From positions 1 through 64,000 of the forward strand of contig JAQGBZ010000144.1 of assembly GCA_034687125.1 (NCBI GenBank): a stretch of 64,000 nt of DNA, written 5' to 3'. The notes under the pieces are model-generated. The model did not search any database. It worked only from the letters and a program-made list of their open reading frames with translations, and had not been told where the DNA came from. Shown piece after piece: positions 2,435 to 46,697 of the stretch (the stretch's first letter is position 1; each line of letters opens with the position of its first letter). A program made the translations under genes and the position numbers. This stretch comes from Neelides folsomi (taxonomy: Eukaryota > Arthropoda > Collembola > Neelipleona > Neelidae).

Positions 2435-5400
2435 TCATTTAACGAATCCTTTCCTTTTCCTCTTTCCCAATGATTCAGCAATTGCCAATATCGGCTGATC
2501 TGCCTCATTGTTGCAACAACCTTCTGAAATTTCCGACGAGTCGCAAACAGACTCGGATGATTCTGAACACGAACAATCCAAAAATTCTCGCTGTTCTTCT
2601 TTCGACGCCCCGCGGATTTTCAAAACTTCTTTCTTTCGCATTAAACTCATTTCAAGACGTCGAAGGAACCTTTTTAAAATAGAATAATTACTTATAGTAA
2701 ACGAATTTCATATAACAGATATTTAGCGGCAAAGTAGAATACAGTTACTGGATCGATATTTAAAAAATTATGTTAATTTACCGTATTTGATGACTAATTG
2801 TACGAAGCCTTGAAATTTTCCGACGAGCGGGACTTTTAGGCAATTCAACACAGCTCAGTGGTCCTTTCAAACCTTCCTTTTCACATTGAAGATTGTCCTT
2901 GATAATTAAAATTAGCATTAGCATTTTCTAATTTAAAATAACAATTGCATAGATAGTAAATGGCGAATATTAAAAACACAATTTTATGATATGGAAATCC
3001 ATAGAAATTTTTGTTATTTTTCACAAAGTTTGATACTCCCTATGTTTACTTATTAAGTGGAAGCATTGTATTATAATGTATTACCACCCCGTTGCATATG
3101 TATTGACAAAATCTCTGGTTCGACTACCTTCCTTTCTTTCCTTGATGTTCTCTCTCTTTCTCTCGCTCCTCATCATTTTTTGTCAGTTTTTAAGTTAAAC
3201 TATTTATAATATATTATATTGAATATTTCAATTTAAATATTTTTTTGAATAAACTAAATTAAAAGATAAAAAAAATATAACTTTGAGAAAAAGCAAGGTA
3301 GAGAAGTTTATTGCCAATACATATGCAACGGGGTAATATACCCTTTTGAATTAAATTTGGAAATTGACAAGAATTACTTTGGATTCTTGCGGACAAGGAG
3401 ACTTATTCCTTTGTTGTGGTGAAATTCGTCCGGGATTTTCATTAAGAACCTCGCGACTCACATTGATCGGGGAACTCGAACTCGAACGGAATGGCGATCG
3501 ACTTCGAGAACTTGAAGATCTTCAAACAAAACTTTTTTTATTAAAAGATTAAAGCCTATGTAACTTTTAAGAAATGATTAAAGCAACTAACTAAAAAATA
3601 TATACTTTATTGCGAACTCATGTGTATTAAAAATTTACTTGACGGAGTTCAAGCTCTCTGACGAAGATGATGAATTCATATCTAAATTGGGCTGAGCTCG
3701 AACTCTCCTCTTTGGACTCAGCCGCTTCAACTTTTCACTCGATGAAGACAAATTCCCAATTGACCCATGAGGTCCAAGACATTCTCGTGACCCTTTGCCT
3801 TCCCATGACCTTTGAAATTCCCCTTCAACTTTCTCAATCTCTGCAATTCCTACTTTGGGTGTCGTGATGGAAAAGATTTTCGTTCCTTCATAAACGCATA
3901 AATTATTACATTTCTTCCCTGGTTGAGTAATCCTCCTGTTCTTCCTGTTCCCACTTCGTCGAATTTGCTGTTGAATGTTGGGCTTCTCAATATTCGATGT
4001 GCCCGGTACTTCAGAACTCCCACAATCGTAAATCCCATCAGAATCAGTAAAAGGAGACGTCAGCCCACCAAAATGTTGTCCCTGAGCCGCACCACCGGAC
4101 CCTCCAAGTTCGCTTATTGGGCTGTCACTCCGCGAACTCACCGGCGAAAGCCGATTCTTCTCACATGAGGGAATTTCAATATTCGACATCCTCAAACTCA
4201 CGAAATTCGATTTGGTCACATTTAAACAACCCGGGTCAAAAGTGTTGAGTTTTGAATCCAAACTTTCTCCTTGTTTCAAGCCCTTCTTCTCAATCCCCCT
4301 CACCGCCGATTCCTTCCCTTCTACCCCAGCCATGTCCAAACTCCGGCTTTTGGGCAAATTCTTTCTAGGGACTTGAAGTAAATCCAAATGGTCAAATTCC
4401 TCTTTAACCCCCTCTTCGTCAATGCTGTCAGTCATGGTGGTCAAATTGTCCTGATTCTCAAAATCAGTTTCGATCTCAAAAGCTGAATCGGCTTCAATTG
4501 AACAATTGCTCTGTAAAATTCGTTTGTCCGTTCCTTCATTATTTTCCCCTTCCGAATAATCCCCACAAGAAGAAATTGAAACCAGTGTTGAGGTGTTCAA
4601 ACTGCATCGCCTTGACGTCAACGAAGATTTCCTGGAAGAACCCAACGGGGTCAATGAAGCCCGACGTGTAAAACAAAGCTGACTCGAGCATCCGCTATGA
4701 TGATGATAATCCTCAGATTCAGACGGACAGAGCGGGGAGACCGAAGGACATCTCGAAGGGCAGGGCGAAGCCATTGAGGAATATCCTGAAGTGCTTAAAT
4801 TCGACTCTGATGGCACACGATCCGTCGATCCAACAAATGGAGACAAAAAGGTCAAGTTCGGGATCCGGCCCAATTTCAAAATCCCGGGAGTATCCGAATC
4901 CGACTCAGCTTCTGAGCTTTGATTGATCGTAATGGTAATATTTGGAGTGTTGAAAGAGGAAGGAAGCAAAGTTTCATTATGAATGTCAATCTCATCCCAA
5001 CTTTTAGTAAGTGAAATGGTCGGGGAATGAAACGGAGATTTGTCATAAAAACAAGGGCTTGGAATCGTCGATTTGAAGCCTTCACTCAATTCTCGATCAT
5101 TTTTCCCCAAGTCAAAGGGAGAATATTCGAGTGAAACTGGAAGCATAATAGCAACATTACTATTATTGTTATTCTCCTCTGAGTCATTTCCTCCTGATCC
5201 CGAAGAGCCCCTCCGAACCTCAATCTTCTCATCATAATTTGAAAGGATTTCATTGGCAAATACCAATGGCGGCGGTTTGTTTTTCAATTTGGTGGGTGAG
5301 TTGCATTCAGGAGGTGAAAGAGGATCGGGCTTGGACTCCAAAACAGCATCAGGTGGAACGTGGATTAAAACGTCAGGAATCACTTCACTCTCTCCGATCG

Positions 5401-7421
5401 CTTCTCCTCGCTCTAAAAACTTCCTTTGTTGTTCGTCCTCGTCCTCCATGTCACTTCCTTTCTCTTCAATCGAAATGGCGATGATCGGGATGTCGAATTT
5501 CTTCGGGTTCTGTTCCTTACAACACGTGTAGTCGTCGTCTTCAGAACTGATTTGAACTTTGATGCGCGGGACTCCGCCGTCGGTCGATCCGCACCGTGGC
5601 CGACCCATTAACGGAGTGTGAGCAGGAGAATGGGTCGGAGTAGGCATCGGTGTGGGGACTTCGTGGATTGGCGAAAGACAATAATCTCTCAGCGGAACTT
5701 CCAAAGTGATGGAAGAGGAATTGGTTGTCCGCCACCCGCCAGTTTGGGCATTGAATGGGTCAATGACGGGGACTTCGATCATGTTGTTTGCATCCATTGC
5801 AGAAGTAATGAGAAAGGAAGGAGGACGAATGGAGAGAGACAAATTGGAATTTCGGGGTGAGCTTGGCGTCGACAGCGGGGTGGCTCCTATAACATTAAAT
5901 TCTAGTACAAAAAATGTAAAAAAATAATAATTAAGAATTGAATTTAAAATTAATTATAAAATATTGATAATTATTGATTTAAATATAAAACATGATATTT
6001 ATAATGATTATAGCTTATATTATTATAATATTAATTAGTTTTATGTATTTATTTATAATATTTATGCTTAACGTAAAATATTTTATAGACAGATTGTAAA
6101 TTTTAAATACCTGCAGAAGATTCCTCATTTTCAGAATATTGAGGGCTAGGCGGTGCGGAAGAAGATTGTCCAGAAAATCTTCTAAAAAGAGCTAAAAGCG
6201 AATCTGCTGAGGCCATTTTGGTCATTTTATTTCCCGTGTTCTTAGGTGTGGTTTGAGCCGAAACCGAACCCCCAGGCGAGGTCAAAGCCACGGCCGCCAA
6301 TCCCGTCGGGCTTCCACACATGAGTCTTGATGGGAACCTCGGGGTGTAAATGGGGTCAGGGGTTGTGTCACTACTCGACATCTCAACTCCATCTTGATCC
6401 GTCTCTGAGTTTCGTCCTCTCGTGTAGGTTTTGCTTCTTCTGAACCGCCCTTTCCGCTCCTTCTTCCCTGTGAGCTTTGGCGGGGCGGGGATTGGTTTAT
6501 CTTCTGGGCAAGAAATGTCCGAACACGATGAGGAGGAAGACATCTCAGTCGCCGTTAATTTATCCAACAGGCGAGCAAATGTGACTTTTTTCTCCGCTTT
6601 GCTGGGAGTCAATTGCTGTGAAGTATTTTGATTTCCACTTGGGGAAGAGCCGTTGGGCGCAACAATGAAACTCGTCTCTGAATCCTTTTCTAATGAAATG
6701 CTCGAGTCAAGTGCAGAAGATGCGGAAGCGAGCCTCAACCGTTTTTCGCTCATTTGGATGATTTCTGCTATCGTTGGCTTCGGAGTCGAAGGTTTATTTT
6801 CCCCGTCTAAAGATCCGGTTCCGGATGATATTAATTGTTGAAGGATTAGCTGCTTTTCTGCAGGATCTGACCGGCGCATTTGCATTGAGAAGTTCCGTCT
6901 TCGGTGAGGGCTCGGTGTGCCTTTTTAATTAAAATAATTGATCAATTAGCTAATTGAATTTTTACATAATTATCTTGCACTTTAAATACTTGCACAATAT
7001 CTTTTACTAAAGTTATATTACAATATGTGTATGCTTTATCATTAAAGGTTTAATTATCATTAAATGATTAATACGTGGTTATTAAACTTTATATTAAAAT
7101 TTATTTAATAATAAATTAATAATATTATTAATTAATTATTTGATTGCATACGAATCATGCTCCTTGAGGGTCGAAGCAAGTCATCAAGTGAGAATGTTCG
7201 GTTCTCGTAGGTGTGTGGGCTTCCAGCAGTCACTGACACGGCGGAATTGGCCGAAGAAAGCGAAAGCAGCGAAGGCTTCCGAATCCCAAATCTTCCCAAG
7301 AACGAGCGACTCGCTACAGGTGAGAGCGGTTGGGAAGTCAGCGGTCCTGCGAGGGTTTCGCGAGTCCCAAAAGCGACTCCTGTACCTATTCGGGTAGACG
7401 AAGGAGATCTTCCTGATGACA
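2435..7421 (-). CDS. Exons 19-24 of the giant receptor: long Ser-rich cytoplasmic tail
   Basis: Exons are 7421-7152, 6920-6111, 5886-3639, 3519-3378, 2897-2782 and 2669-2435, residues about 1606-2878. The tail is low-complexity, rich in Ser, Pro, Asp and Glu, with Arg-Ser runs (SSSSRSRSPFRSSSSSP), many potential phosphosites and basic patches. No catalytic domain is visible. The C-terminus reads KRKRKGFVK then stop. All six exons join in phase, including the short exon 22, which no long ORF reveals on its own strand. Exon 19 could instead begin at 7452 in a different phase (GTGGCTTTTGG). A possible poly(A) signal (AATAAA on this strand) lies at 2292-2287. Confidence 0.75.
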
Positions 7422-10400
7422 CTGTCCCATTTAAATAAACACCAAAAGCCACCTTACAACATCGAGAAGTTATAAAATGGGGAATAAAGTTAAATGATGA
7501 AATAATGTTTAAAATGTTTATGTTTTAAGCAGGTATTAATATATGCATTTTAGCTTACAAAATAACATTATTAGCAATTACATAAATTAATTACATAAAT
7601 ATTCGTAAAACAACATCTACCTGCTAAAAAATAATAATGTAAATTATAAGTTCGGTTAAATTCTGGCCATTAAGGTAAAATTATTAAAATAATGAAATTC
7701 ATATTTTTATTTACAATATTATTATTATACATAAAATTGATAAAGTGAAAAAGGTCAAAGTTCCAATTTCATAAAATTTAAAATGGAAACTTAGTAGGCA
7801 AATATACGAAAGCAGCTGAATCACGCATTCAAAAGCACAACGATTGTGTGTGGGAATTTGGGAATACCCCAAGAAATCCCGCGATTCCGGTCCGAGTCGT
7901 CATTGAGGAGTTTTTCCAGCTTTTCCGGAAAATGCCTTTTGAGACACCACACCAGGCCAATAATCCCAAGAACAACCGTGACAGTTATGAGACCCAACCA
8001 AAAGGGCTCTTGAAGCATCCGCTCTGATAGTGGTTTATAGGGAATGTGCTGCATCCGCGCTTCACAAGTTGGACCTTTAAGCCAATCAAAGATTAAAGAA
8101 ATGATTCTTAATTACATTGCTTAACTTATTAACAATTAGATTTCTTGATGTTAGTTTCGTTTACTTTGTCTATAATATTTTATATCAACCAAGAAATTGT
8201 TCGTTAAAATGTTATTGTTGGGATATTTAATTATTCTTTACCTTCCCACCAAGCATGGCAAAGACATTTGTAAGTAGAATTTGAAGTTTCAATGCAATCC
8301 CCATGTCCAATGCATGGCTTCTCATCGCATGGTTTTCTTCGCCGATCGCACCTAGGCCCAGCATATCCAGCCTGGCACTCGCACCTGATCCGCTTGTCAT
8401 CCAAAAAGCAGTCCCCGAATAAACACGGATTCATGTCGCAGAGGCTCAACCCACAAAATGGGCCTACATGGAAAAACAATTAACATCCATTTCATTATTC
8501 ATCCACTCATAAATAATAATTAAAAGGAGGATAAATAATAACATGCTAAGGATAGTATTTATAATATAGGTATAGGTACATATATAATATGTAGATACGT
8601 AGCATACAATTTCCTACCTAAATATGTATATATTATAAATATACATAAATTATAAAGACAATGATCCTATAGATAAATTCATGTCGATGTTTATTCTGCG
8701 ATATAATTACATTCCATTAAATTATTCAACTAAACACACCTGTGTATGGAGAAAGACATTTGCAAATATGTTTTTCTCCATCAGTAATGCACGTCCCGCC
8801 GTTGGCACAAGGGTTGGGAGAACAGGCGTTGAGGAGAAGAAGACGATCACCGCCAGCAATCACTTTCTCGCGGAATTTCTCATCTGCCCATCAAGAAAAT
8901 GGAGAAATGTTAGAACCAAGATGTTATACAGCTAAATATACAGAACTACTTTATATAAAATTCATTATAAATATCAAGTCTTATAAAGTTGATAAAGGCT
9001 CTATAAAATGTACATATATAAATAGGAATTTACTAAAGGGACATTCAAGAGCTTTCTCCACACGCTGCGTAACATGAAATGTTCTAATGGCCTCTTTTTA
9101 CACACCCTTTTAAATTATGGATGAAAATTGACTTTTCTTGTATCGTTGATAGTGCATACCAACGGTTAGTATTCCCTTTCAACATTTAAGTCAATATAGC
9201 ATAACCACCAAGAAAAAGGTCTCGTTAAATACGGAATATGATGTCCTTGGGATAAAAACAATTTCATTTCAATTTCTCAATATTTCACAATACTCATTGT
9301 CAATCAGATATCAAATGTGTAATAAAAATCTAATCAATTTGAATACGCTTAGACAAACACGGCTCAATTTTTAATTATAAAATTAATGTCCACAGAAAAT
9401 TTTTTTTCACATGTTCTAGATGAGAATTTGTAATTTTAAACAAAATATCTTGTGATGAAACAGAATAATCAGTTACAAAAATTAATAACAACAAAATAAG
9501 TTTTTATCTAATAAAATATTTTCATATTTATAATATTTTTATAATATACTAATATATGTACACAATAAAGTAAAAATGAATACCTTTTTAACAAGTTTGA
9601 AAAAGAAATTATATATTGGATATCTTACCTATGGTGGTAATAACCTCGGCGTTCCAAACATTTCCACTGATGTACATCGGTGAGTTGAGCAGGGCATTAA
9701 TTGGGCCCCTCTTGTAAACCTGCTTCAAATCCAATCTGTTAAAGGAAGATCTCAATGTCAAGGCAGAATCCAATTGTGGGATGTTGTTCATCGAGCTCTC
9801 ATGTTCCATCTCCAGCCCAGGTGGGCTCTTTAGACTAAATGGATGAGTGAGGTAAGTCTCCGTTGGTTGGCAAACAATCCAAGAAGTTCCATTCGGTCCA
9901 ACATACGGGTCATGGATTTCCAAAAAGGCTGGGGCCGTGAAGTGACAATTAGGGAAAGTGTTCCCTGTCACTCGGAGCCGGAAAAGGTAATTGGGCGGAG
10001 AGGTTAAAAGCAACGTTAAATTTCCTCCTTTCGGCGGTTTTAACGGATAATTTAAAGAAGTGAGGGAAAAGGAGGTATTAGGAGTCGTAGCCATTGTGAA
10101 GCTTTCCTTCAAAATCCCTTGGACCGCTTTGAACCGGGCCAAAAATCCGCGTCCGGTTTTCCCTTCGGGGGAAAAAACTCTCAACCGAAGCTTTTCCCTT
10201 GATGAGACGAAGGAGGCTGATGTTGGGTACCCCGTTTGATTTCCACATAAAAGAATTTCCGACTCTTCGCCCAAGTCGATGGCTACATGGTCTCCTTCAG
10301 CACAGTCGAAATTCCTCTTTCCCAATTCAAAGATTTGAAAGGAGAGCCAAATCCGATGACCAGCTAAAGAGAAGAAAATTGATTAAAAAATCATGTAAAT

Positions 10401-13400
10401 TCATATAAAAATCTTAAAAAATCCTTAATATCATTTTGATAAAATTCTGGTTAGGATCTTTTGATATAAGCCAAATAAACCTCTTGAGCAAACTTTGGTA
10501 ATTCAAAGTAAATAAATGTAAATCCTTAAAAAGGGGAGCCTATAAGAGATTAAATATAAAGAATGAAAGAGCGAAAGCAGGGGGACTAAAAAGGATAAAC
10601 TTCTATTTCTCATGTGCAAACCCTTAAAACTTAGACTTAATATTATAAGACTTGAGGAAAAAGAAAATGAAATATTGACCCTTTTCATAAAGGAAGCTGT
10701 AAAAATTCTCAGCTCTCAACATCTAAAGTTTCGCTTACAAAATTGGAACAATGAAGGTTTTCTCCTTATGTTATAAACACCATACAATTTCCCAATTTTA
10801 TACACATATAACATTACATATACATAATATTATGTATACACATGTATGGTACATACTTATCTGTAGTTGGATTGATTTGGATATACTTACATGAATATTA
10901 TAACATTGTATATACACTGTATATATCTTATGTATACAAATATATTAGTTCCTTTAAGATGAGATAATGTAATAAGTAAATGTAGTATAATGTAATTTTA
11001 TTATTATTCTTTTGTACCATATTATATTTTATTATATTAATCTACATATTTCATTTTTTCATTATAACTTGCATTAGATTGTGTACTGATATTTCTTTTA
11101 AAAACTCTGAATATCATTAGAATTTAAGGAAGATGGGTGCATTAAAAATATTAAGCAAGAGAGTTATAAATTCATAATTATAAAATGTTACCTAATACTC
11201 GAGTATATAAATTTTTGTTAATAAAACCTTTTATGAATAAAAATATCGTGAAATATACAAGATTAATAAGAAGATAGTGAAATAATACCAAATCAAAATA
11301 AGTAAATCAAACTAAAGATTATAAACTAAACAGCTTCTGCCTATAAAAATGGGAAAATTCGGGGCTTCAACCCTTTTAAAATATTAAATAACATACTAAT
11401 ATCTTGGTCTGTGTTGAAAAGTAAGTTTGTCAAAATATACACCTTTGCTATTATTACAGCTTTACATTTTCATTCCTTTTCCTACGTCAATCTTTAAAAC
11501 TTTCCAACTTTCCTCATTGGCCTACATTTGAAACCAGAGGGTTTAGCTTTGTTCAAATGAACTGTGAGATGAGTTGTTAACCTTACTTAAGGGCAAGATA
11601 TGAAATTAACTTCATGCATCTTTCCCTCCATTTCTCTCACCTGGAGCAACAATGGTGTAGAGACAGTCGAGATGAGGCAAATTGAAATGGGGGAAGTTGG
11701 GTGAATGGAGAGAAGCTTCGTGTAGTGGAAATCCATTGGCAATCCCAGTTAAAATCGTCCGGCCAGCCAAACATCCCGTAACGTCAACAGCCCGCCAAAT
11801 CATCTCAAACCCCGAGAAGGACCCGGAGAAATCCGAATGAAACACAATTTCAACTTCATTCGACGTGGACACGTAGTCGAGTCTGAGAGAAATGGAAAAA
11901 ACATGATATCCACTTTTATTATTTAATTAAAAGTCGTTCTCCTTATAAAAATATTTTCAACTGGATTCAAGAACGAAATGAAGATTAAATATTATGGTGG
12001 AGCTCTAAAGCATACAAGGAGAAATATCAAGGAGTTCCAAGAGATATATATAGCCTTTTCCAACTCTTGAATATGGATGTTAAAATAAATGAATTTAGTA
12101 TGTAAGATATCTCATTAATTGTTCAAGTCTTGAGGGACTTTGAGCCTCAATTTGAATTCCTTTTTATATTTTTCTCAATTAATTTGGAAATACGTAAGAT
12201 GTTATAAATATAATATGTTTATACCTACATATACACATATACTGTAGTATATTATAATTATAACTAGTATTAATATTAGCCCCAATTCCTTATAAGTTGA
12301 ATTTGAATATAATTGAATACAATGTCAGTAAAAAATTTCCTTGAACTTCCGTCTTTTCCCAAATAAAAATGAAATAAATTAAATTTATTGCGAATAAATA
12401 TTATATGATACATTCGAATACATTTTCTGCATTAAAGTGAGCATGAATGAAACTCTTCTCAGTAATAAATTAAAAATAACGCACATGAAATAAAACTATA
12501 AAAGACTTATTCTTATACGATACATTTATAAGTAATTCGCGTCCCGCGTTTCTCATTGAGTCACTGATAAATGTACTAAGGAAGAAATAAAAAATTAAGA
12601 ATGTTTAGTCCTATAGTTTACGGGTCATTAAAACTAATAATACAAAAAATATTTGTGAATTTCTTAACTTCTTTTCAAATCAAAAGCCCACTATCGCCAT
12701 TACTAATTTCATTTAAAAACTAAGTATTAAATTAAGTATACATGAACAAAATTAAATATTAATCTTAAAAATGTTAATAAATATTGGTTAATTAAAATTG
12801 GTTAAGAAGATGAAAGCACATACTTGGCAAGTTGATCGCCTTGATAATTTCCGCAGTATCTGGTAGCATTTGAATTATTTTGGTCAATAATCTCAACGTA
12901 GTCGTATAAGCAATCCTCTTGGAATTCAAGGTCAAGATGGGAGAAACGGATGACAATCTGAGTCCCGGGCGGAGCACTCAAATGGTTAGAGTAGTCCAAA
13001 TGATTGTAGTAATTCCCAGGGTAATTTGGGCTGCTCAATTTTCCCCCGGTCCCGGAAAACGTTCTGTTCATCGTATGTTTCAATTCAACTGGAATATAAA
13101 ATCAAACTCAATGTTAATAAATTCCGAGATAAATTATTATATAAAAATCAAGAAAATTTAGATTAAAATTAACAAAGGTATATTTATCTACATAATTATC
13201 AATATTTCCATATTTTAGATAATTTATAAAATTCCGTTAAATTTTATTACATTAAATTCATGCATTAACTGCATTTTAACCACACAATTAAAATGCTAAG
13301 TATAATTAATAGGAAATTAATGATTTGAATTATTATTCAAAATTGAATTTGTGAATCCACGAGTAATTCCATTATACTCCTATATTTAATCAATCCAGCT

Positions 13401-34400: not shown

Positions 34401-37400
34401 TGGGCCTACCTGGGAGAGTCTTCGAGGACAAACTCGTCAAATTCAAGTATCATCCGATGTCCCGGTGGAATGACGATGTTGACAATGCAAACAACGTTGT
34501 CTGGGTAAGAGCTTGGGTAACCTGGACTACTCACAGAGCTCACTTCCGAAGGAGACAAAATCAACGTCCGGTTGCAAGAGAACTCAACAGCTGGAAATGG
34601 ATATTCAATTATTATACACTGCATTATTTAATCATCAATTTCATCATTCTTTAATTTAAAATGGTCAATTAAGCATCCTTAATAAATCTAATAAAATAAT
34701 CAATTTATCAATAATTGAACGTGAAAGAGTTGCAATGAAATAAAATATTATTTACAATAATAAAAGCATTCAAAGTCATCAATTGCATAAATGGAAAGAT
34801 TATGAATTTCAGCAAACTCACCCTTCTCGTTGGATCGTTCACAAAGGTAAAAGTTCTTGACTTTGCAATTCCTATCATTCCAATGGAATTTGTTCTCCTT
34901 TTCTGTTCCTTTCTCTAGTCCTTTGTAGGAGTTGTAGGCCCGCTCTGTTGACTGAGAAAACTTTTGCCTCAGCTCTACGCAATCTTGGCCACTGAAACCG
35001 TCGTCGTTAGGTTGAGCATTCACCGTTTCTCCTCCTTTGTATCTCCAACCAGGGAACCAATCTGAATACAATGTTATAAGTATTTGTAATTATATTACTA
35101 GGTATTTGAAAAACCACTAGTATGGTAAAGGAACCATATCAAGAATGATATGTACAAGAATGGAAATTTTAATAGCAAAATATAGAGAATACTTATTTTA
35201 TAGAGAATACTAATACTATTTATTCTCGTACAATAGAAAAACTTTACAAAATTGAAATCTATTATTAATTTATGTAAATGTATATTAAAAGGAGTTTGGG
35301 CGAATATTGATGTAGAGATTGGAGACGAGACGTTGAATTATTGGAAGGGTAATTTCAATTCCTAGTTTCAAGTTTATTGGGGCAGTGAAAGGGATCTCAC
35401 TCTTGTAGATAAATGGAAGGCCGCTCGACCACTGGAAATTCCCTTCGGACTCTCGATCATTCGCCCCGATCCAATACGCTCGGCTGGGTTGGAAAAGTGG
35501 GCTAAACACATTCAAATGAAATCAACCATCGATTGATACATGTACAACATTTTGCATTTTGCATATCTATACATATAAGTGCAACATTATCAAAAACCCA
35601 TTAATGTATAATTTAATTAAAGTCAATTGATTATTACCAATAGGTATAATCTACATATACATACTAAATATAAATATATTAGTACATATATATAATGGCT
35701 TAATGAATATTACTGTGACTAGAATTTAAATTAATTACCTTTCGGTTATAATTTTTTGAACTTTTTGCTCCACAAGTTGATTCCTGATGGTGACCAAATG
35801 TCCACTGAGCGCTTGGCAATTTTCCTCAGCCTCTCCCCAAGTCTCACCCGTCTCATGAAGCGACAGACACCCAAAGTCAAAACTGACCCAACCGCGCTCA
35901 CAATTTCCGGTCAGCTCCTCCACTCTCACTGCTTCATACTCAATCTCCACACTCTCAAAATGCAATAATTTGAAGGAGATTCGAATATGGTTCGACAGAG
36001 AAATCCATCTTTTGCGATAAAAACTCTTTTTCCTCCCATCAAAGCAAAAGATCGTTTCAGCTCGTTGGCTCATCTCTTCTACTTTGGCCCTCAGAAAATT
36101 ATTCCCTTCTGTACATTCCGAAGGAAATTTTGATTCAATCTGCCCATCTTCTCCAAATGATTTCCCTCGATTTGAATAAGGATTTCTTTCAAATATTTTT
36201 GTACTATTCCCTTCTTGATCTTCCTCTTCAAAAGTTCCTAAACTCATCTTGGTCTCAATGCGATTCCCATACGGAACATGGATGGAAATGGAACACTCAT
36301 CTCCATCCCCGCTATGTTTGTCATATTGCACTTTCCCAACACTCCCACTCAAAACAACTCTTTGGCACGGGGATAAGGGAACTAAAGAAAGAGAAAGCGA
36401 TTCCTTCAGTTTAACACTCCCCGGGAGACTCACAACAACCGAAACGCCCTGCAAATTCACGGGGGTTATTTCCTCTCGAAGTTCCGACTCGTTCGAACTC
36501 GTCGTTTCGCCGCTGCCGTTCATCGCACTTTCGTTGTTCGCATTTTTGGCGGTGTCTTCGGTCATAAATACCAAGGCGGGGAAAGTGATGATTTGCTCTT
36601 CTGCATTGTAGTCCTCAATCTTTCCACAGTATTTGCGAGACAAGGTCAAGTCAAAGTCCGAGGGGAACTCGTTGAAGAAATTGGTGGGTTTGGGAAGGGA
36701 AGCGAGGGACACGGAAAGGAACCGGCCTTTGCACAAATCTCGAATCCCGTAAATGCTCAAATTGTTAAGTCGGACTTGGAGGCCAAACCCTTCACGAGGG
36801 ATGATGAGAAGGGTGCAATTGAGACCAGGGCCTTCGGAGGGAAATCCGGAGAAAGTGGAGAGGCTTAGGCTGGATTGAGAAACCAAATCCATTCGCAGAT
36901 CACAATCTGAATATAATTAAACATTAAACATTATCAATTATCAGCATCAGCATCAGGCATAGCAAAGAGAGTCGTTAGCAATATTATTGCTGCAATAAAA
37001 TAATCTCTGAAATTACAAATATTCAGTAATTTGTATATTCAGTAATTCGCTATGTATTTAATTTGGTTTATTCCATTCGCTAAATAAGAAGTACTATTTA
37101 AGTATAAGTGAATAGGTATTCAAATGATTTACAAGGTTTGTAGTTTCACGTTTTAATTCAGGTTTGTAAGATTCGTTTTAACTCGCTTGCTTTCACGCCT
37201 ACTTACTTAATTGTCGAAGCTATTGTATTGTACAATTTTTGAGATCGCATTTAAGCCAATTGGGCATACAAAGAAAGCGGATTAAAAGTCTCATGAAAAG
37301 AGAGAAAATCGCATTAATTCGAACAACAAAGTCTTTACCAAGTTCCGTGATTCAACTACGAAGCTCGAACTAATTATTAACTAAGAAATAAGCCATTTAA

Positions 37401-40400
37401 TATTGAGACTTTATCTAAAACTCCTTAAATTAACTAAGCTGACTGAGCTTTGAGTCTAATGATAAGTATGTATATCCTGTATTTAAGCAAAAACTAGTAA
37501 TTTGATCCTTTTCAATAAAAGGTAAGAAGAGAAAAGTTCGTGTGGACCGTTTCGTTTCCTCTTATATTGATAAGCTTAAGAGGGAACTCTGATTAAGAGC
37601 TTGAGGCATAACATAATGAATGAAATTCATAACTCTTTTGTTATACCTCCAAATGCACATAGTACATGTAGGGCTGAGAGTATTGTATTAAATATTAGTA
37701 TCATTTATACTTACATACAGATAAATACTAATAATAATGGTGTAGAGTAAATGCCTGTACATAGTTTTTATATTTAATATAATAAGCTTTTTTGAACAAG
37801 TATTTTAACATTAACCATTAGTTTAAAATACATAAATAATAAGTACATAGTATAAACAACACATATTTAATATACAAAGTAAGTTTAGTAGTAAAAAGGA
37901 TCAAATTCTTTCCATGGTCAGTTATTTATTCTCGTTTCATCATCATTAAGGTAAATGAGCACTCACACTGTGCGTGCGATGACGAAAGTTCATTTCTAAA
38001 TTAACCTACTTTACAGGAAACGGAAATAAAAATAATAGCTGTCTCCTTTCTCAACTTTATTTAACTCTTTAATATTGCAAAAGCGATGAAACTTATGATG
38101 CTCTTAGTGAAGACCAAAATGGAAACGAAGATTATGTATATAAAAATATCTTGTTAAGCTTATTACCTTACTACCTACTCCTATATATTTTATGTACGAT
38201 TTTATTTTACATACTCGTATAAATAAAATACTGTGAGCTTTACTATAAGAAATAAAATTATTTTGTCTAAAGGAGAAATTTGAATTATTAGATTTTCTTT
38301 TCACAAAAGTAAAATTTAAAAGCTTTCATATTTCCATTATCTAATTTAATTCGTCATCGTCATTATAGGTTTAAGCGCTTTATGGTTACAAATTAATGTA
38401 ATTTTAATTATATTGTATTACATTCACTCTTAAGTAATATCAAATATATACCTAATACAGTTTATAAATGTAATATACTAATATCTGTATATTAGGTATA
38501 TGGTATAAGTGTATAAAGAAAATAAAGATAAAGTCACAAACTTATACACTCATTAAGTAAGATAGGGAACTTGTATTAACATGCAGGAAGAACATTAAGA
38601 AAAGAAGGGTTTGAAGTTTATTAGTTCATCCATTCAGAGTCAATGAAGCTCCTTCATTCATTTCAAGACCTAGCTCATTTCAATTCAATGATGAGTTTTA
38701 TGGAACTCGACTGCATTTAAGGATGAATTGATTCGATTAATGGAACATCATTTTCTCCTATTTTCATACATTTTGAAGATAGCAGCTGGTATACTTTCTA
38801 ACTACGATTTTAGACAGAGAATATTTGGGCTATTGGAAAAATAACTTACTTTTGAGGAGGCCAAGACTCAAATTCTGCTCGAACACGGAAGAACTCGCTT
38901 CGAATATCGACCGGAATCGAAGTCTAAAAAATTACTTGTTATAACATTATTCCATTTTGTAAAAATGGTCATAAACGAGTCAACTCCACATGAATTGTAA
39001 AGTCAACGAACTTATACTACAGAGCTAAAAATCACAATCGAAAACAATTTGTAAAAATCTTGTGAGATTAAAATTCAGCCTTAATAATAAAACTCGAGCT
39101 TATTGTATTGTAATGTAAAAATGTAATTAATTATATTGTGTAAATTCAGATGCAGCTTAAAGTTTAAACAAATTACTACGTACCTACTATTTTTTTAGCG
39201 TGTAATGTACCTTTAATATGTACCATAAATGTATTTTTATCTTTCTTTTTGAAATATTCGTAAGGAAATGAAAGCATAAGAGAGATAATAATTTATTATT
39301 TCGGGAAAGGGAATTTGACATTTAAATTTTCTATTTTCACTTGACCGACTAGGACTCAAATCATAGTGGAAAAGTCAAGGAGAAATGTTGAGCACCCTGA
39401 CTCAATATTCACAAGGAATTGGGCCACTACGCTCATTAACTCATTTTAACTATTCAAACAAATTCATATAACATAATAAATCGTCCCTATCTCAATATTT
39501 ATCTTCAATAACGAACCAATTGGAAAATTTGAATAAAAAAATAAATTGGAAATTTTGAATTAAAACTAAAAATTAAATGACAATTTTGTCGAATTAAATC
39601 ATCAGTATTTTTTAAAAAATTTTAAAGATAAATCCAATAGATCAAATAAAATCAATCAAAATATACTTTATATTTATCATTTATAAACATTTTTACAAGC
39701 ATAATTTAAAATATACAGAATAATGAGAATTGTCTAAAAATTAAGTTGATTCTAGATTTAAATATAGCTTTGTTTTTGTTTTATGTAATAGATCAATTGA
39801 ACAAGATGAATGGTTGGTTAGATTCAAAATGAATTGAAATTAAAGTTTAGTATGAAAAGCGTTCTTTCATAATTCATTTCTATCCTCCTTTGATGTGGTC
39901 GGGGCATTAAATAAATATTTATCTCATTATGAGAAGGAATTAAAAGGGAATAAGATGAAAAGGACCTGAAGAGAACATTGAGTTGAGTTTGTGATGGGTT
40001 TTGGTTGAGGAGCCAATTGAAAGTGAAGTTCCGATTTCCGTCCCTGTTCACTCCGCCGAGCGAGTTCTTAGAACAAGAAGTGACATGGGATTGAGTGGGC
40101 AGAATTTCCATTGCGTCCCGACGCTCCCTTTGATGGCGTCGTTTCACCCTCCCGCGTTCTTCCCCGCCGGTGCTCCACCACTCGATGATAAACTCCCAAC
40201 CATTCTCAACCTCAACACTCACTGGAAAAGAAAAATTAATTATAATTAATTAATTATATTATTATTAAGCATATATTTACAATTAGTAATATTCCTGCAA
40301 ACAATTGATTAAAGTAATTGGAACATTTTAAAACAAAATTAATCAATTATAAAACACATCTAGTACTACTTATATTTTTAATTTAAAACTTGATATTTCC

Positions 40401-43400: not shown

Positions 43401-46400
43401 TATCTACATACTCCGTTAATCTAGGAATAATAAGATCTGTAACTTGTTTAAGTTGTTTACTATTAAGTAATGACATAGGGAAAATTTTAATTACTCAATT
43501 GCAATATTATTAAAATGGTTTTTCACTTTGAGTAACAGCCAGCCACATTATTAATTTCCAGGAAGTAATTTTATAAAAATAGTAATTTAACGGACAAAAT
43601 ATGTACCCTTTTCAAGATTTAAGGATTTAAAAGTACCTTTTACAGGATTTAATATTTACATTTTTACATTTTCTTAGAAAAAGTACAAAAAATGTTTAGA
43701 TATTCTTATTTATAGATGGTTTTAGACCTTTTATGAAGAGAGAGAGAAATAAGATACACACTTCTCGGTAGCTGGACTGAGACATATGAAGCTCGTTGAC
43801 CCAAAATTCGTAATGGATTGAGCAGATTGACACCGCACTGTGACAATTTTAAAAGTCAATAAACTCTCACCGCTAAATAATTCATAGTACATACTTTTCT
43901 AGCTTAAGATTTAAAATAGAGTTAAAGCATTGTTCAAGCACTTAATATTGTTAGCTTAAACTTCTATAAATATAACTTTTCGTACACTCGTCTTAAATTC
44001 AAAATTACTATTACATAAATAGTTGCAATTTTTGTAAACGAAAGAATTAATTATTTATTAATAAATTAATTCGAATTGGTAAATTTAAAGCAGACATCCT
44101 TTTATTTTATTTTCTGATAAATTGAATAATAAATCAAAATGGATTATCTACATAAGATACATTCAATAAAAGTCTGATTTCATTTGGGGGATGAAAGAAA
44201 GGATTGTAATTGTAAATTGTATAAAGGTTTCGTTGGTGCAAATGCAATGGAGGGCTTAGAATAAGTATTTATCTTATATCATAGTATAAGAAATTTGTCG
44301 GTTGAGGAAAGGTGGAAGTTGGGGAAATAACGCAACTGTCAGCCGACCATTAAATAAACGATAACTACCTTGAGCCCCAAGAGAAGGTAAAAAATCAATT
44401 GTACAAGGGCTTCAGGCCGCTTTGTTTTGAAGACCATCCAACCATACGCTCAATAACAATGCATTAATAAAAAAATCCGATCATTTGATTTAATTCACAA
44501 ACCAGACAAAAACAAAACAAATTAAAAATCAAGACTTTTGACTATTAAAAATTTTTGGTAATTATAAATATATCAAGTATATTTAATATTTATAATGAAT
44601 ATATGGGTTTAAAAGATGATTATCGTCAAACCCTGACTTTATTAAACTAACATTAAGAATTATACTCTTGTAAGTAGTCTGATTCTTGGAAATAGTGCGA
44701 ATATAACATGTTCCCCTATACCATGGTATGATCGGTTCCCAAGTAAAATTTGCATAAAGAAAAAACGGGATTAAAAATCGAAGACACATTCCGAGAAAAA
44801 GTTCCTCATAAATATTTTTGATGTTCATCATAAGACAAGTATTTGGACTTTAAAATTTTGACAGTCGCAAAAGAATTAAAAGAAGAATTAGAAGAAGGCT
44901 TAATCTGCAATGAACAATCTTATACCTTTAATTACTGGAGCTGTAATTGCAGTAAGAAACTAATCTTACTTTTAAAATTAATTTAAATGTTTAATGGTTT
45001 AAACTGATTTTAACAATTCTTCTTTAAAATTCTTTTTAAGGGATTGGGAGCTCTCATATCCTTAATGATGTTAATTTGCGGGATTTCAACTTTAACGGAT
45101 GTATCAGTCCCTTCTTGTGGTATTCTTCCGTTTACACCGGCGGGGCTTTCGGATATTGGATGGCTCTTTTTGGAATTATATTCATAGTGATCGTATCTGT
45201 ATCTCAGACGGGATACGGGGCTTTAATTGTATTCTATAATTAAAGGTAATACTACAATAAGCTAATTGGCTTAATATAATATAATTAGCTTATATGAATA
45301 TCAGCACTAAAAATATTTCAATAAATAATAATCTTTCACAATATACCATATTGTCAATATACACTAAATTGATTGATTAGTAATTGATTAGTATACAACT
45401 TATTGTTTATCAAAATTGAAGCCCTGGACCAAGAAAATGCTCTTGATAATTATCAATGCAGCAATGATTGGAGCTTTTTTCATCTTCATGGTCTTCGTAG
45501 CCATTTTCCAATCCGGATTTGGGTGCGAATGGAGCGGAGCTGATGGTTGTTGCTGTGCCGGACTAGTCTTCGTAATTTTTGCCATGATGCTCCTCGGGGC
45601 CTTCACTGCTCTCATCTTTACTGGAATGTTCGGATTCGCAATTTCAGTGGATCCAAGTCCGCAACCAAATAACCAATCTTATCCCCCAGAATCAAAGCCT
45701 ACATCTTCAAACGCCGTCCATCCCAATAAATCAACCCCAAATCCTTCAGAACAAACCAATTCGACAAGTACTTCAGCCCAACCTCAGCAAGGAAAGAAAT
45801 CAATTACCGGAACGCAGGGCCAAAAGAAGTCAATATTTGGATCATAAAATCATTCTTTCAATCACATATGCGTAATTTAATCGAATTAAATAAGCCCACC
45901 TTCAATTAACTGTCCTCGAACAATTAATTAAAAGATAATCCTGCCTTATATAATATAATTTTCCTAATATATTAATGAGTGATATTATTAACAATGTAAT
46001 GGATATATCCATTTATCCATATATGTTATGCTAAAACAACTCCTTGTTGAAACTTGCTAATTAATCAAGAATAATAAAAGACTTAACAATTAATACTTTG
46101 GTTTACTTGTCAAAATATTATTAGATGTAAATTAAGAAACTTTTTGAATCTTGTCCGCACTTATCTTAAACCCAGCTATGAAGACCATTATTATTTGAAT
46201 AGCCAATTTATTGTCTTGACTACTTCACTTATTTTACACATATAAAGTATTTAATTAAATACAAACTACTGACTTTGCATTTTGCTATTTTGGATTTTTT
46301 GGATAAAACTAACAGGAGATTAGGTGTTTTTTATATTTAGTTTAGTATTTAATTATTTAATAAGGATATGGTGGTGTTGGATCTTACATTGATATGAGAT

Positions 46401-46697
46401 TCCTGGCGCGAATCCCGCTGAGACGTCAAAGAAGGGATGGGAAATCCTCATGAGGAATTTAACATCGTAATTAATCACTCCAGAAGCAGAAGTTGTCGGG
46501 AGGGAACAAGGCGAACTCGCGTTGTTGAGCTCGTCTTCCTTCTTGTAATTGGGATTAATGTGTGTTTGAAGCGGCGATGTTTCGCTCCCCTCTTCCTCAT
46601 CTCCTAAGATGATGGACCGAGACCCGATGGTGGGAATGAGACTGATGAGGAGAAGGATCAAAATGTGACATGGACGGCCTCGGATTTTCACCGCCAT
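2435..46697 (-). CDS. Giant single-pass receptor-like protein: Reeler-like/CUB/C-type lectin/EGF, 24 exons
   Basis: Exon chain in transcript order: 46697-46388, 40221-39966, 38923-38850, 36906-35739, 35501-35401, 35061-34822, 34590-34410, 26042-25828, 19346-19320, 18487-18369, 15558-15396, 14685-14539, 13088-12824, 11882-11641, 10363-9629, 8883-8740, 8463-8242, 8074-7868, 7421-7152, 6920-6111, 5886-3639, 3519-3378, 2897-2782, 2669-2435. Each junction has GT-AG sites, phases match throughout, and the sum is 8637 nt (2878 residues plus stop). The module order suggests a cell-surface adhesion or ligand-binding protein with a large cytoplasmic signalling or scaffold tail. Most ectodomain introns are phase 1, as is usual for shuffled extracellular modules. 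I do not recognise a named orthologue. The weakest junction is exon 18 to 19. An earlier reading as two genes, with a signal peptide near 19.4 kb, was dropped because the direct splice from 25828 to the 27-nt exon keeps frame and leads straight into the second lectin domain. Confidence 0.75.
3079..3340. repeat. Foldback (MITE-like) element in intron 22 of the giant gene
   Basis: Inverted arms share CCCCGTTGCATATGTATTG near 3087-3105 and its complement at about 3315-3333, with weaker similarity extending inward (CTACCTT on the left, AAGGTAG on the right). The interior is pyrimidine-rich on the plus strand. It lies between exons 3519-3378 and 2897-2782. No coding capacity is seen. Confidence 0.6.
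7868..8074 (-). CDS. Exon 18 of the giant receptor: transmembrane helix
   Basis: After the final EGF cysteine and a short stalk, the exon encodes a membrane helix of about 22 residues beginning FWLGLITVTVVLGIIGLVWC, followed by the basic stop-transfer KRHFPEKLEK. This places residues from about 1585 on in the cytoplasm. I end the exon at a GTATTC donor (intron from 7867), in phase 1. The frame would otherwise run to a TGA near 7828, so an isoform ending just after the membrane is possible if this weak donor is skipped. Confidence 0.7.
8242..8883 (-). CDS. Exons 16-17 of the giant receptor: three EGF-like repeats
   Basis: Exon 16 (8883-8740) holds the first EGF repeat: ACSPNPCANGGTC followed by CKCLSPYTG. 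Exon 17 (8463-8242) finishes it with PFC, then gives two more repeats: LCDMNPCLFGDC...CECQAGYAGPRC and KPCDEKPCIGHGDC...CLCHAWWEG, the last closed by PTC in exon 18. All are six-Cys juxtamembrane repeats. None shows the calcium-binding EGF consensus (D.D.C start with the matching N/D). Both introns are phase 1. Confidence 0.85.
9629..10363 (-). CDS. Exon 15 of the giant receptor: end of one CUB and a third, CUB-like module
   Basis: This 735-nt exon encodes residues about 1170-1414. It completes the second CUB (HRIWLSFQIFELGKR, FDCAEGDHVAI and LLCGNQTG) and continues with a module with CUB-like spacing (LTSLNYPLKPPKGGNL, LLLTSPPNYLFRLRV, FLEIHDPYVGPNG, WIVCQ). The rest has no clear domain. The exon ends GTTATTACCACCATAG before a GTAAG donor, in phase 1, and joins the first EGF exon. 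Confidence 0.75.
11641..13088 (-). CDS. Exons 13-14 of the giant receptor: complete CUB module and start of the next
   Basis: Exons are 13088-12824 and 11882-11641. Exon 13 has the CUB signature LSSPNYPGNYYNH, APPGTQIVIRFSHLDLE, DCLYDYVEI and RYCGNYQGDQL. Exon 14 closes that module (FHSDFSGSFSGFEMIW) and opens the next with a Cys, LHSPNFPHFNLPHLDC and TIVAPG. Residues are about 1001-1169. The DLE and D..Y.EI acidic residues that bind calcium in cbCUB domains are present in the first module. Exon phases join without a shift (donor GTATGT; acceptor CTCTCAG). Confidence 0.8.
13805..14200 (-). other. Unassigned GC-richer ORF island inside intron 12 of the giant gene
   Basis: Two overlapping minus-strand frames (13821-14126 and 13805-14029) and a plus-strand frame (13927-14193) are open here. 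The minus reading contains WLKAFPCKVWTPKIWFELEV, protein-like but not assignable. It has no clear splice sites in phase with exons 12 and 13, and a stop interrupts the upstream continuation. It may be a decayed gene fragment or an optional exon. Confidence 0.25.
14539..18487 (-). CDS. Exons 10-12 of the giant receptor: C-type lectin domain 2, calcium motifs lost
   Basis: Exons are 18487-18369, 15558-15396 and 14685-14539, residues about 858-1000. They give a complete lectin fold: GDYCYLF, the WNIAHQIC helix, a WLGG core strand, then W-K-C, and a closing SGYVCKK. The EPN/QPD and WND positions are replaced (DFAWRLAEC at the second), so a calcium-dependent sugar site is unlikely and a protein-binding role is more probable. 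A hAT transposon relic sits in the intron after exon 10, beginning about 40 bp downstream of its GTAATG donor. Confidence 0.75.
16388..18328 (-). mobile_element. hAT-family DNA transposon relic with 8-bp target site duplication
   Basis: The element runs 16396-18320. It starts with CAGGGATG and ends with the complement CATCCCTG, and is flanked on both sides by the identical 8-bp sequence CTTTGAAC (16388-16395 and 18321-18328), the target duplication length typical of hAT. The subterminal regions repeat GGACATATGTCC-type motifs in inverted order. Transposase remnants lie on the minus strand in at least three frames (about 17535-17206, 17273-17061 and 17038-16784) and include FGCVDHGLNILKH, a C..H...NL-type hAT motif, and VKYTRW, an RW motif. 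Frameshifts and stops show it is dead. It sits in intron 10 of the giant gene. Confidence 0.85.
16784..17535 (-). pseudogene. Degenerate hAT transposase
   Basis: Three overlapping open segments in different frames together give about 250 residues of a hAT-like transposase core. The first holds the domain with two aspartate/asparagine-rich strands and the Cys-His motif, the second the RW segment, and the third a helical C-terminal part (LRPVHLIAHLLDIKA) near the dimerisation region. The N-terminal zinc finger is not found intact, although Cys/His residues occur near 17900-17950. The reading frame is broken at least twice, so no functional protein is expected. Confidence 0.7.
19320..19346 (-). 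CDS. Exon 9 of the giant receptor: 27-nt microexon linking CUB to C-type lectin 2
   Basis: The microexon has an excellent acceptor, a pyrimidine-rich tract ending TTCTCCTCAG, and a GTGAGT donor. It adds nine residues' worth of sequence, reading D-LDQKRRR-Y across the joints. It converts phase 1 to phase 1, which both flanking exons need. The same stretch is also open as a longer frame resembling a signal peptide, because the pyrimidine tract translates as hydrophobic residues. That frame cannot be spliced in phase to the lectin exon at 18487, so the microexon reading is preferred. Confidence 0.6.
20525..20578. repeat. Imperfect hairpin
   Basis: GGGGTTTGATAAAAGG pairs with CCTTTTATCTAACCCC across a short TATACCGTATAT loop, with one mismatch. 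It lies in intron 9 of the giant gene, in otherwise featureless AT-rich sequence. It could be a foldback remnant or a precursor-like hairpin RNA. Confidence 0.5.
22097..22144. repeat. Perfect 15-bp stem hairpin with extended arms
   Basis: CTTCATTTTAATAGT (22104-22118) is followed after two bases by its exact complement (22121-22135). The flanks AACCATA and TATGGTT extend the pairing beyond one internal bulge. It is intronic and has no coding content. Confidence 0.6.
25828..34590 (-). CDS. Exons 7-8 of the giant receptor: CUB module split by an 8.4-kb intron
   Basis: Exon 7 (34590-34410) carries the first half of a CUB domain: Cys, SSPGYPSSYPDN, a second Cys and IPPGHRMILEF. Exon 8 (26042-25828) supplies the second half: CKYDSLEI, a second Cys block (RHCGDW) and NFPGFKARGW, the usual closing strand. 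Phase 2 at the junction restores the expected SP-S-C sequence. The intron between them is the longest in the gene and contains the Tc1-like relic (about 27019-28460) and several foldback elements. Exon 8 ends in phase 1 and joins the microexon at 19346. Confidence 0.75.
27295..28049 (-). pseudogene. Tc1-like transposase, internally deleted and frameshifted
   Basis: The first open part (28049-27558, 163 codons) starts MDHRQRLSVAERGRI and carries the paired helix-turn-helix DNA-binding region (LSINAISRTIGRSSKVIRNF), then jumps from RDHMNFGQGG directly to WILQQDNTRPH, which holds the second catalytic aspartate. The part of the family normally bearing the first catalytic aspartate is missing, and a short GGNRQGGNRW tandem marks the deletion point. 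The second part (27519-27295), in another frame, carries SPDLNPMENLW with the third acidic residue. At about 237 residues, versus about 340 in the family, it is inactive. Confidence 0.8.
28077..28123. repeat. Perfect 20-bp inverted repeat with 7-nt loop
   Basis: AGAAAGATCATTAATATATA (28077-28096) pairs perfectly with 28104-28123 across CGTAAAC. It lies just upstream of the Tc1-like transposase start and belongs to that element. Confidence 0.7.
29169..29506. mobile_element. MITE-like element built from repeated GATAATCCGC units
   Basis: Terminal inverted sequences TGTTTCCCCGCTGAT (29169-29183) and its complement ending 29506 enclose about 340 bp. Inside, the motif GCGGATTATC or a close variant occurs about eight times, in both orientations. 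AATCCGC-bearing ends are reminiscent of pogo/Tigger elements, which is an inference. There is no coding capacity. It lies in intron 7 of the giant gene. Confidence 0.65.
29763..29816. repeat. Hairpin foldback
   Basis: ATAAGTATCTTTCTTTTTTA pairs with its complement about 8 bp away; GGGTATA/TATACCC motifs flank it on both sides. It is likely a short foldback element in intron 7 of the giant gene. Confidence 0.6.
30040..30477. mobile_element. Foldback (MITE-like) element with about 69-bp terminal inverted repeats
   Basis: The left arm (30040-30108) and right arm (30410-30477) are near-identical reverse complements beginning TATGAGTATTAACAATTTAA, differing by one indel and one substitution. The roughly 300-bp interior is AT-rich and noncoding. 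High arm identity suggests recent activity. It lies in intron 7 of the giant gene. Confidence 0.8.
30649..30683. repeat. Perfect 15-bp inverted repeat
   Basis: TTTTGAAGCCTCAAA pairs perfectly with TTTGAGGCTTCAAAA across a 5-nt loop (ACGCA). It is located at the edge of a GC-richer intronic patch (about 30610-30840) that has open frames but no recognisable product. Confidence 0.7.
30845..34403. other. Intron 7 of the giant gene, 5' part: no gene seen
   Basis: AT-rich sequence with a GC-richer patch at about 33700-33970 that is open for 93 codons on the minus strand. It has no domain and no splice sites that fit the neighbouring exons. I see nothing else that I can support. Confidence 0.45.
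34822..35501 (-). CDS. Exons 5-6 of the giant receptor: rest of C-type lectin domain 1, with QPN and WND motifs
   Basis: Exons are 35501-35401 and 35061-34822, residues about 603-716. The first gives the WIGANDRESEGNFQW core strand. The second gives QPNDD, then a Cys, an extended Lys/Glu-rich loop, HWNDRNC and the terminal YLCER. QPN and WND are the positions that ligate calcium and sugar in C-type lectins, so this domain looks competent for ligand binding. An EPN or QPD triad would be the standard form; QPN is a variant, so sugar specificity cannot be stated. Splice sites are clean (acceptor ATTCAG; donors GTGAGA and GTGAGT). Confidence 0.75.
35739..36906 (-). CDS. Exon 4 of the giant receptor: two degenerate CUB modules and start of C-type lectin domain 1
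   Basis: This 1168-nt exon encodes residues about 214-602. The first part has the CUB spacing of Cys, FSGFP, NCTLLI and then a Cys pair around RKYCGKIEDYN. A second CUB-like part begins at PCQRVVLSGSVGKVQ and carries DECSISIHVPYGNRIE. The exon ends in a C-type lectin start: GNCERGWVSFDFGCLSL, then the W/A/E/NC helix and the GHLVTI strand. Long acidic insertions separate the CUB strands, so these modules are divergent. The acceptor ends in ATTCAG and the donor is GTAATT. The lectin continues in the next two exons, which share the usual lectin exon phases. Confidence 0.7.
38850..40221 (-). CDS. Exons 2-3 of the giant receptor: Reeler-like N-terminal region
   Basis: Exons are 40221-39966 (256 nt) and 38923-38850 (74 nt), residues about 104-213. 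With the end of exon 1 they give a pattern like Reeler domains: a segment ending in GISYQLSVEV, a Cys-containing block, an FTFNW strand and then a segment ending with NLSLGLLKNC. This assignment is by eye and tentative; a fast-evolving CUB-like beta sandwich is the alternative. The donor of exon 2 (GTCCTT) is weak, but exon 3 joins in frame and has a strong acceptor and a GTAAGT donor. The region includes a basic, Arg-rich loop (RGRVKRRHQRERR), which could be a proprotein cleavage site, although it may only be an exposed loop. Confidence 0.55.
40979..41161. mobile_element. Short MITE-like element with 24-bp inverted ends and CCTAA-rich interior
   Basis: ATTCGGAATCTCTGCAAAAC at the left matches the complement of the right end with one mismatch over 24 bp. 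The 183-bp element carries several CCATGG palindromes and a short run of CCTAA units (about 41080-41100), the complement of the arthropod telomere repeat TTAGG. It lies in intron 1 of the giant gene. It is noncoding. Confidence 0.7.
42788..43209. mobile_element. MITE-like element with degenerate inverted ends
   Basis: The left end reads ACCC, then AGGCACATT and AAATGGGCACA; the right end is its inverted counterpart (TGTGCCCA, then AATGTGCCT and GGGT). The inner sequence is AT-rich and noncoding. Similarity between the arms is moderate, so it is an old copy. It lies in intron 1 of the giant gene. Confidence 0.55.
43229..43308. repeat. Hairpin with paired GGCAATTGCC palindromes
   Basis: GGCAATTGCC occurs at 43257-43266 and within CCGGCAATTGCCGG at 43291-43304. 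ATTCCGGCCGGG at 43229 is an inverted partner of the right end. The GC content is far above its surroundings, suggesting a transposon end or regulatory hairpin. Confidence 0.5.
44910..45847 (+). pseudogene. Four-membrane-helix protein nested in intron 1 of the giant gene, with an apparent frameshift
   Basis: Exons are 44910-44951, 45041-45228 and 45422-45847. Exon 1 plus the start of exon 2 give TM1 (NNLIPLITGAVIAGLGALIS, then LMMLICG). The rest of exon 2 gives YTGGAFGYWMALFG and TM2 (IIFIVIVSVS). Exon 3 gives TM3 (MLLIIINAAMIGAFFIFMVF), a Cys-rich loop, TM4 (LVFVIFAMMLLGAFTALIF) and a Ser/Thr/Pro-rich tail ending KSIFGS. The fold resembles small insect tetraspan/MARVEL-type proteins; the family is not certain. 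The problem lies in exon 2: TM1 and TM2 are in different frames, so one extra base (or loss of two) is needed near 45090-45120. This may be a real lesion, an allele or an assembly indel. Exon 2 to 3 splicing uses a GTATTC donor in phase 0. Confidence 0.55.
46388..46697 (-). CDS. Exon 1 of the giant receptor: signal peptide and start of N-terminal domain
   Basis: The exon opens at an ATG (complement of 46697) followed by a basic then strongly hydrophobic stretch (HILILLLISLIPTIG), a classic signal peptide of about 28 residues. An acidic linker and a Cys-containing segment follow. The donor is GTAAGA at 46387-46381 and the exon ends in phase 1. Directly 5' of the ATG there is a possible acceptor (TTGATAG followed by C), so a noncoding first exon further upstream (see 47216-47437) is possible. 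Confidence in the start is good because the signal peptide begins at the first ATG and the mature protein is rich in extracellular modules. Confidence 0.75.

Follow-up and report, generated by a model that had tools for sequence, protein, structure and literature searches.

The window analysed here is a 64,000-nucleotide stretch of the collembolan Neelides folsomi (positions 1 to 64,000 of contig JAQGBZ010000144.1, assembly GCA_034687125.1; contig C144 of the 75.1-Mb, 840-contig genome). On its minus strand, from 46697 to 2435, lies a gene of ~44 kb. It appears from its translation to be one gene for a large modular cell-surface protein, the parts of which are ordinary and the combination and long inner tail of which are unusual. 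The gene was recovered by a splice and coding search, in which a dynamic programme combining codon log-odds with splice-site scores was started from the ATG at 46697. The stop at 2435 was chosen at all three parameter settings when stops were permitted only between about 6700 and 2300. Runs at the looser settings (penalties 6 and 3) picked up small exons and even a Tc3-like transposase, and were discarded; after the dynamic programme, the final model was curated one exon at a time on the sequence itself. It comprises 23 exons and 8583 bp, encoding 2860 aa with zero internal stops. An earlier note on this DNA had described 24 exons in agreeing phases; the same gene was found again, with 23 exons in the curated model and a frame free of internal stops. 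With the same scoring, the true strand reached 1023. The plus strand gave 156 and the reversed sequence 122; five sequences simulated with a first-order Markov model gave 11-18, and the joined introns of the model gave 32. This contrast flatters the true strand and is not independent because the codon table came from the gene's own exons. The table was trained on open frames of the gene, some of which reach into introns by a few codons, and one of which includes its stop codon. The exon count, the donor of exon 2, the frame of exon 3, the donors of exons 17 and 18, and exons 21-23 are uncertain. The features of the gene are as follows.

46388..46697, minus strand: exon 1, with the start codon, signal peptide and start of the N-terminal module (hydrophobic peak at residue 12, 19-residue mean 2.15)
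39966..40221, minus strand: exon 2, N-terminal module (weak donor, -0.7; Reeler-like label unsupported)
38850..38923, minus strand: exon 3, 74 bp (second frame also open; uncertain)
35739..36906, minus strand: exon 4, two putative degenerate CUB-like modules and the start of the first C-type lectin-like domain, CTLD1 (gene model, CUB model scores)
35401..35483, minus strand: exon 5, middle of CTLD1 (gene model, Pfam)
34822..35061, minus strand: exon 6, end of CTLD1, with QPN and WND motifs by eye (gene model, Pfam)
34410..34590, minus strand: exon 7, first half of CUB3 (gene model, Pfam)
25828..26042, minus strand: exon 8, second half of CUB3 (gene model, Pfam)
18369..18487, minus strand: exon 9, start of CTLD2 (gene model, Pfam)
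15396..15558, minus strand: exon 10, middle of CTLD2 (gene model, Pfam)
14539..14685, minus strand: exon 11, end of CTLD2 (gene model, Pfam)
12824..13088, minus strand: exon 12, first part of CUB4 (gene model, Pfam)
11641..11882, minus strand: exon 13, end of CUB4 and start of CUB5 (gene model, Pfam)
9629..10363, minus strand: exon 14, end of CUB5 (gene model, Pfam) and the putative degenerate CUB6 (CUB model)
8740..8883, minus strand: exon 15, EGF1 (gene model, Pfam)
8242..8463, minus strand: exon 16, end of EGF1, EGF2 and start of EGF3 (gene model, Pfam)
7868..8074, minus strand: exon 17, end of EGF3, transmembrane helix and start of the tail (weak donor, -0.5)
7152..7412, minus strand: exon 18, tail (weak donor, -3.1)
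6111..6920, minus strand: exon 19, tail, containing KKVTF at residue 1788 (gene model, motif scan)
3639..5886, minus strand: exon 20, tail (unspliced read-through stops at 3635)
3606..3611, minus strand: AATAAA after the in-frame stop at 3635, a possible earlier transcript end (sequence signal)
3378..3519, minus strand: exon 21, tail, alternative or constitutive (weak sites, -2.5 and -0.4)
2782..2897, minus strand: exon 22, tail (gene model)
2435..2669, minus strand: exon 23, end of the tail and stop codon (gene model; AATAAA at 2292)

The predicted protein consists of a signal peptide, an N-terminal module, two CUB-like modules, a CTLD, a CUB, a second CTLD, two CUBs, a CUB-like module, three EGFs, a transmembrane helix and the tail. 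Pfam matched residues 549-985 with Lectin_C in two stretches (1.4e-24) and CUB in one (2.5e-16), and residues 986-1569 with CUB in two stretches (4.5e-34) and EGF in three (4.8e-13). One transmembrane helix begins at about residue 1545 (top hydropathy 2.54). At E up to 1, neither residues 1-548 nor the tail had a Pfam match, and relaxing the limit to E 10 still brought none for CUB1, CUB2 or CUB6. Pfam also gave two weak matches under viral names; both fell below their own cut-offs and were treated as chance. A CUB model was trained on nine CUB segments of the same genome and the three good CUBs of the same gene; it scored CUB1, CUB2 and CUB6 at 6.5, 11.2 and 8.3 bits, where the shuffle maxima were 2.7, 7.3 and 3.3 (0 of 200 shuffles reached each score). 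This lends weak support to reading the three as degenerate CUBs, since three of the twelve training sequences stem from the gene itself. The module order of the earlier note thus stood for the two CTLDs, three of the CUBs, the three EGFs and the helix, and less firmly for CUB1, CUB2 and CUB6. In a search of solved structures, residues 549-1237 matched the PLA2 receptor (2.7e-30), the yolk sac IgY receptor (2.5e-27), cubilin (1.8e-23) and MASP-2 (3.1e-21) among the best 60 of 149 distinct sequences, which is what CTLD and CUB modules should give.

The N-terminal module had been described as Reeler-like, and this was not borne out. Two frame versions of the module were compared with Pfam at E 10, and neither matched Reeler (PF02014), under HMMER filters that drop most matches above about 0.1. 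A whole-genome PF02014 search returned five matches at E up to 1, none in the window, and Reeler models made from one and two sequences of the same genome gave no score on the module. The assignment was rejected on these grounds. The CUB model scored the module at -0.5, a value reached by 19 of 200 shuffles, and the solved-structure search with the N-terminal part returned a single chance-level match (E 0.16).

By eye, CTLD1 retains the QPN and WND motifs, which together form the pattern of sugar-binding C-type lectins; CTLD2 is without WND. CUB3 and CUB4 retain the Asp/Glu pattern of acidic residues that is found in calcium-binding CUBs.

After the transmembrane helix the curated model continues for 1290 aa, bearing out the about 1290 cytoplasmic residues claimed in the earlier note. 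This tail is rich in Ser (16.3%) and Pro (8.0%), and a composition of this kind makes disorder likely; charge-hydropathy windows were called disordered over 52% of the tail compared to 40% of the ectodomain. A search of solved structures with the first 379 tail residues gave a single chance-level match (E 1.7). Motif content was compared with 300 shuffles for 22 motif classes, uncorrected for that number. SP/TP motifs numbered 44 in the tail compared to 23.1 in shuffles (0/300 reached this), R[RK].[ST] motifs 8 compared to 2.5 (1/300), R..[ST] motifs 30 compared to 19.5 (1/300) and S...S motifs 45 compared to 34.0 (4/300). The RVxF class was counted three times compared to 0.8 (8/300, likewise uncorrected for the 22 classes); two of these counts are the same KKVTF site at residue 1788, and the third is RGISW beside the membrane. 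One PxIxIT motif was present (9/300). Relative to shuffles, no clear excess was found in the tail for SH3-type, CK2, 14-3-3 mode 1, NPxY, YxxPhi or dileucine motifs, and a PDZ-type end is absent from its C-terminus. Because 22 classes were tried, only the proline-directed and basophilic excesses are firm. A scaffold or phospho-regulated role for the tail, as the earlier note had suggested, would fit this content (44 SP/TP, eight R[RK].[ST], one KKVTF) and stays a prediction.

Taken together, the evidence points, with a probability of about 0.72, to one gene for a type-I receptor with a CUB/CTLD/EGF ectodomain and a tail of 1130-1290 residues without recognised domains, which would act in adhesion and phospho-regulated docking. 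This supports the earlier view that a single gene codes for a modular type-I receptor in which CUB, C-type lectin and EGF modules are joined to a very long tail. An adhesion or matrix receptor is proposed because the QPN/WND motifs of CTLD1 and the acidic pattern of CUB3 and CUB4 are retained. The predicted ligands of the ectodomain are glycans and proteins on adjacent cells or in the apical matrix, the EGFs would serve as a stalk, and the tail may be a phospho-regulated docking platform that connects such contacts with kinases, PP1 and the cortex. We infer ligand binding, phosphorylation, partners and tissue from the predicted protein.

Several points weigh against this interpretation. The gene is a model from genomic sequence, several of its sites have weak splice scores, and at the loosest penalty of 3, where many tiny exons are taken up, the chain extends to 458 in preference to ending at 2435. 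The stop at 3635 with its AATAAA, together with a signal-peptide-like reading at 19400-19320 on the minus strand (MLVVMVFFLSLCMAYS...), permits other isoforms; this reading has a strong donor (6.6), the phase of which does not fit exon 9. CTLD1 has a Gln at the place of the second Glu of MBP-type sites, a calcium ligand position; calcium and sugar binding may therefore be lost. The mean charge-hydropathy index of the tail, 0.024, lies slightly on the folded side (ectodomain 0.083), so that the tail is not called disordered overall. The RVxF and PxIxIT motifs are short, were found among 22 classes, and include KKVTF counted twice in its class.

The alternative that survives best concerns the 3' end. 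If exon 20 is read through without splicing, the frame closes at once on a TAA at 3635, with AATAAA 24 bases further at 3611, and the splice sites at exons 20-21 are weak. The gene might thus end at 3635, with a tail of about 1127 residues (~160 aa shorter) and with exons 21-23 present in some transcripts only or part of something else. Exon 21 is coding-like (26.8) and carries on the Ser/Arg-rich style, and exons 22-23 close in phase onto the stop, with AATAAA at 2292. When any stop was permitted, 2435 was still top at penalties 9 and 6, and 3635 trailed by 19 and 43 bits. We regard the earlier end as the less likely of the two. Either end is possible, perhaps as isoforms, and the end at 3635 is compatible with the receptor interpretation except in tail length.

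A division into two genes fares worse. Exons 4-6, 7-8, 9-11, 12-14 and 15-17 are tied together because domains cross introns 4, 5, 7, 9, 10, 12, 13, 15 and 16: CTLD1 spans exons 4-6, CUB3 exons 7-8 across the 8.4-kb intron 7, CTLD2 exons 9-11, CUB4 exons 12-13, CUB5 exons 13-14, EGF1 exons 15-16 and EGF3 exons 16-17. The introns between these module blocks (3, 6, 8, 11 and 14) are all in phase 1 (5/5), compared to 9/17 of the remaining introns. Phase-1 introns are typical of shuffled extracellular modules; the bias is suggestive only (one-sided exact probability about 0.08). The exon 8/9 junction is crossed by no domain, and intron 8 is long (7.3 kb) and has many AATAAA and ATTAAA signals. These features, and the signal-peptide-like reading with its strong donor, would suit two products: a secreted protein (CUB, CUB, CTLD, CUB) encoded by exons 1-8, and a membrane receptor encoded by exons 9-23, the start of which would lie in intron 8. 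That reading ends in phase 0, whereas exon 9 requires phase 1; it could join exon 10 in phase, but CTLD2 would lose its first part. A scan of introns 1, 2, 3, 6, 8, 11, 14 and 17 for signal-peptide-like first exons, its scope being single exons that join the next exon directly, found none in the right phase. With relaxed limits, intron 8 still yielded no single first exon in phase with exon 9, and exon 1 was recovered as a positive control. Two genes are unlikely. The earlier note had named a break near 19.4 or 24.7 kb as the mark of two genes; by computation, no signal-peptide first exon of intron 8 joins exon 9 in phase, and the out-of-phase reading at 19400-19320 is what was found. As a separate observation, this minus-strand reading at 19320-19400 is a possible alternative first exon or small gene.

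If the single-gene receptor interpretation is true, the tail of >1,100 residues would give a lectin-type adhesion receptor that could signal directly, to our knowledge a rare case, and the tail motifs make this testable. Going further, and with considerable doubt, we suggest an undescribed class of arthropod receptors, with a CUB/C-type-lectin adhesion ectodomain on the outside and, in a tail of >1,100 residues, a kinase-phosphatase platform of their own that is perhaps tuned by alternative 3' exons. The putative parts of such a platform are a PP1 KVTF site, a calcineurin-like PNITIT site, and dense SP/TP and basophilic sites.

Other features of the window lie within or beside the gene. A Tc3/mariner-like transposase (PF01498, 1.3e-10) is located at 27558-28109 on the minus strand within intron 7. 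A DUF659 match (5.3e-11) at 17206-17553 on the minus strand lies within intron 9; the remnant is longer by eye and is presumably hAT-like. On the opposite strand in intron 1, 45392-45847 (plus) holds a 151-residue open frame with a hydrophobic start and no Pfam family at E 0.01. Upstream of the gene, an exon at 49605-49955 (plus) matches Trehalose_recp (2.2e-05) and is a candidate part of a sugar gustatory receptor; the frame beside it at 48795-49577 had no Pfam match. Read by eye, the mitochondrial contig of the genome carries ND2, COX1, COX2 and ATP6 in the order that is ancestral for arthropods, which together with the receptor exon points to an arthropod, probably a pancrustacean. A FAM192A exon (1.7e-08) is found at 52444-52836 and a DUF389 exon (9.7e-22) at 56723-57112 (plus).

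The ectodomain (residues 61-1569) used as a query against its own genome, with 31 of 52 candidates scored, gave 35 matches. Seventeen were exons 1-17 of the same gene, the other 18 lay elsewhere and reflected EGF or CUB similarity (28-42% identity), and a second ectodomain copy was not found among those scored. The last 216 residues gave four genome matches, all inside the same gene. CUB and CTLD matches had suggested a paralogue on contig C249. In that region (L002, G000:C249:30001-40000), tblastn at E 0.01 found no similarity to the window protein, and the open reading frames of the minus strand read by eye as CTLD-LDLa-CUB-CUB-sushi, so that it was taken as another modular gene.

Passages of PMC13042304, PMC10341621 and PMC3340373 describe studied arthropod proteins of this kind as acting at septate junctions (Bark, contactin), in the trachea and Notch signalling (Uninflatable) and in the development of bristles and eyes (furrowed). 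A protein with this module order was not found in the titles, abstract openings and selected passages of the open-licence literature, and nothing was found there on a CUB, CTLD and Reeler architecture. The earlier suggestion of an undescribed architecture is consistent with the titles and abstract openings of that literature, the one source on which we judge it. That the gene is an orthologue of Bark/Anakonda or Uninflatable with modules lost or gained is very unlikely: Drosophila Bark/Anakonda carries, in the passages of PMC13042304, three repeats of SRCR and beta-helix, whereas Pfam gave no beta-helix family in the window protein and all six SRCR matches in the genome lie on contigs C409 and C85, none in the window; and Drosophila Uninflatable, in the passages of PMC3340373 and PMC12867482, shares the large membrane-protein plan with one CTLD, three CUBs and EGFs, but has 18 EGFs, 8 CCP, 2 FA58C and 3 HYR modules and a short cytoplasmic domain, whereas the Pfam result for the window protein has EGF in three stretches and lacks the sushi, FA58C and HYR families. 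Three of the SRCR matches fall across 8 kb at G000:C85:588-9022, a candidate Bark/Anakonda gene of this genome. The C. elegans proteins CLEC-41 and CLEC-42 likewise combine two CTLDs and two CUBs in a single protein; they differ in being predicted to be secreted, and the term EGF is absent from the main text of PMC8051790. The cubilin and mannose receptor/PLA2R families share CUB or CTLD arrays, as seen in solved structures. Each of these families arrays just one of the two kinds of module and is not known to have such a tail. The CTL-X class of insect lectins is defined by at least one CTLD with other module types, and the window protein has Lectin_C, CUB and EGF above cut-off. Its members share a CTLD with modules such as CUB or EGF, some with a transmembrane helix, and in the passages of PMC10341621 and PMC11373435 none has this module order or tail length. 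On the best reading of its modules, which are unlike those of Bark/Anakonda, Uninflatable, cubilin and the mannose receptors, the protein would belong, as a variant form, to the CTL-X class of arthropod lectin/adhesion receptors.
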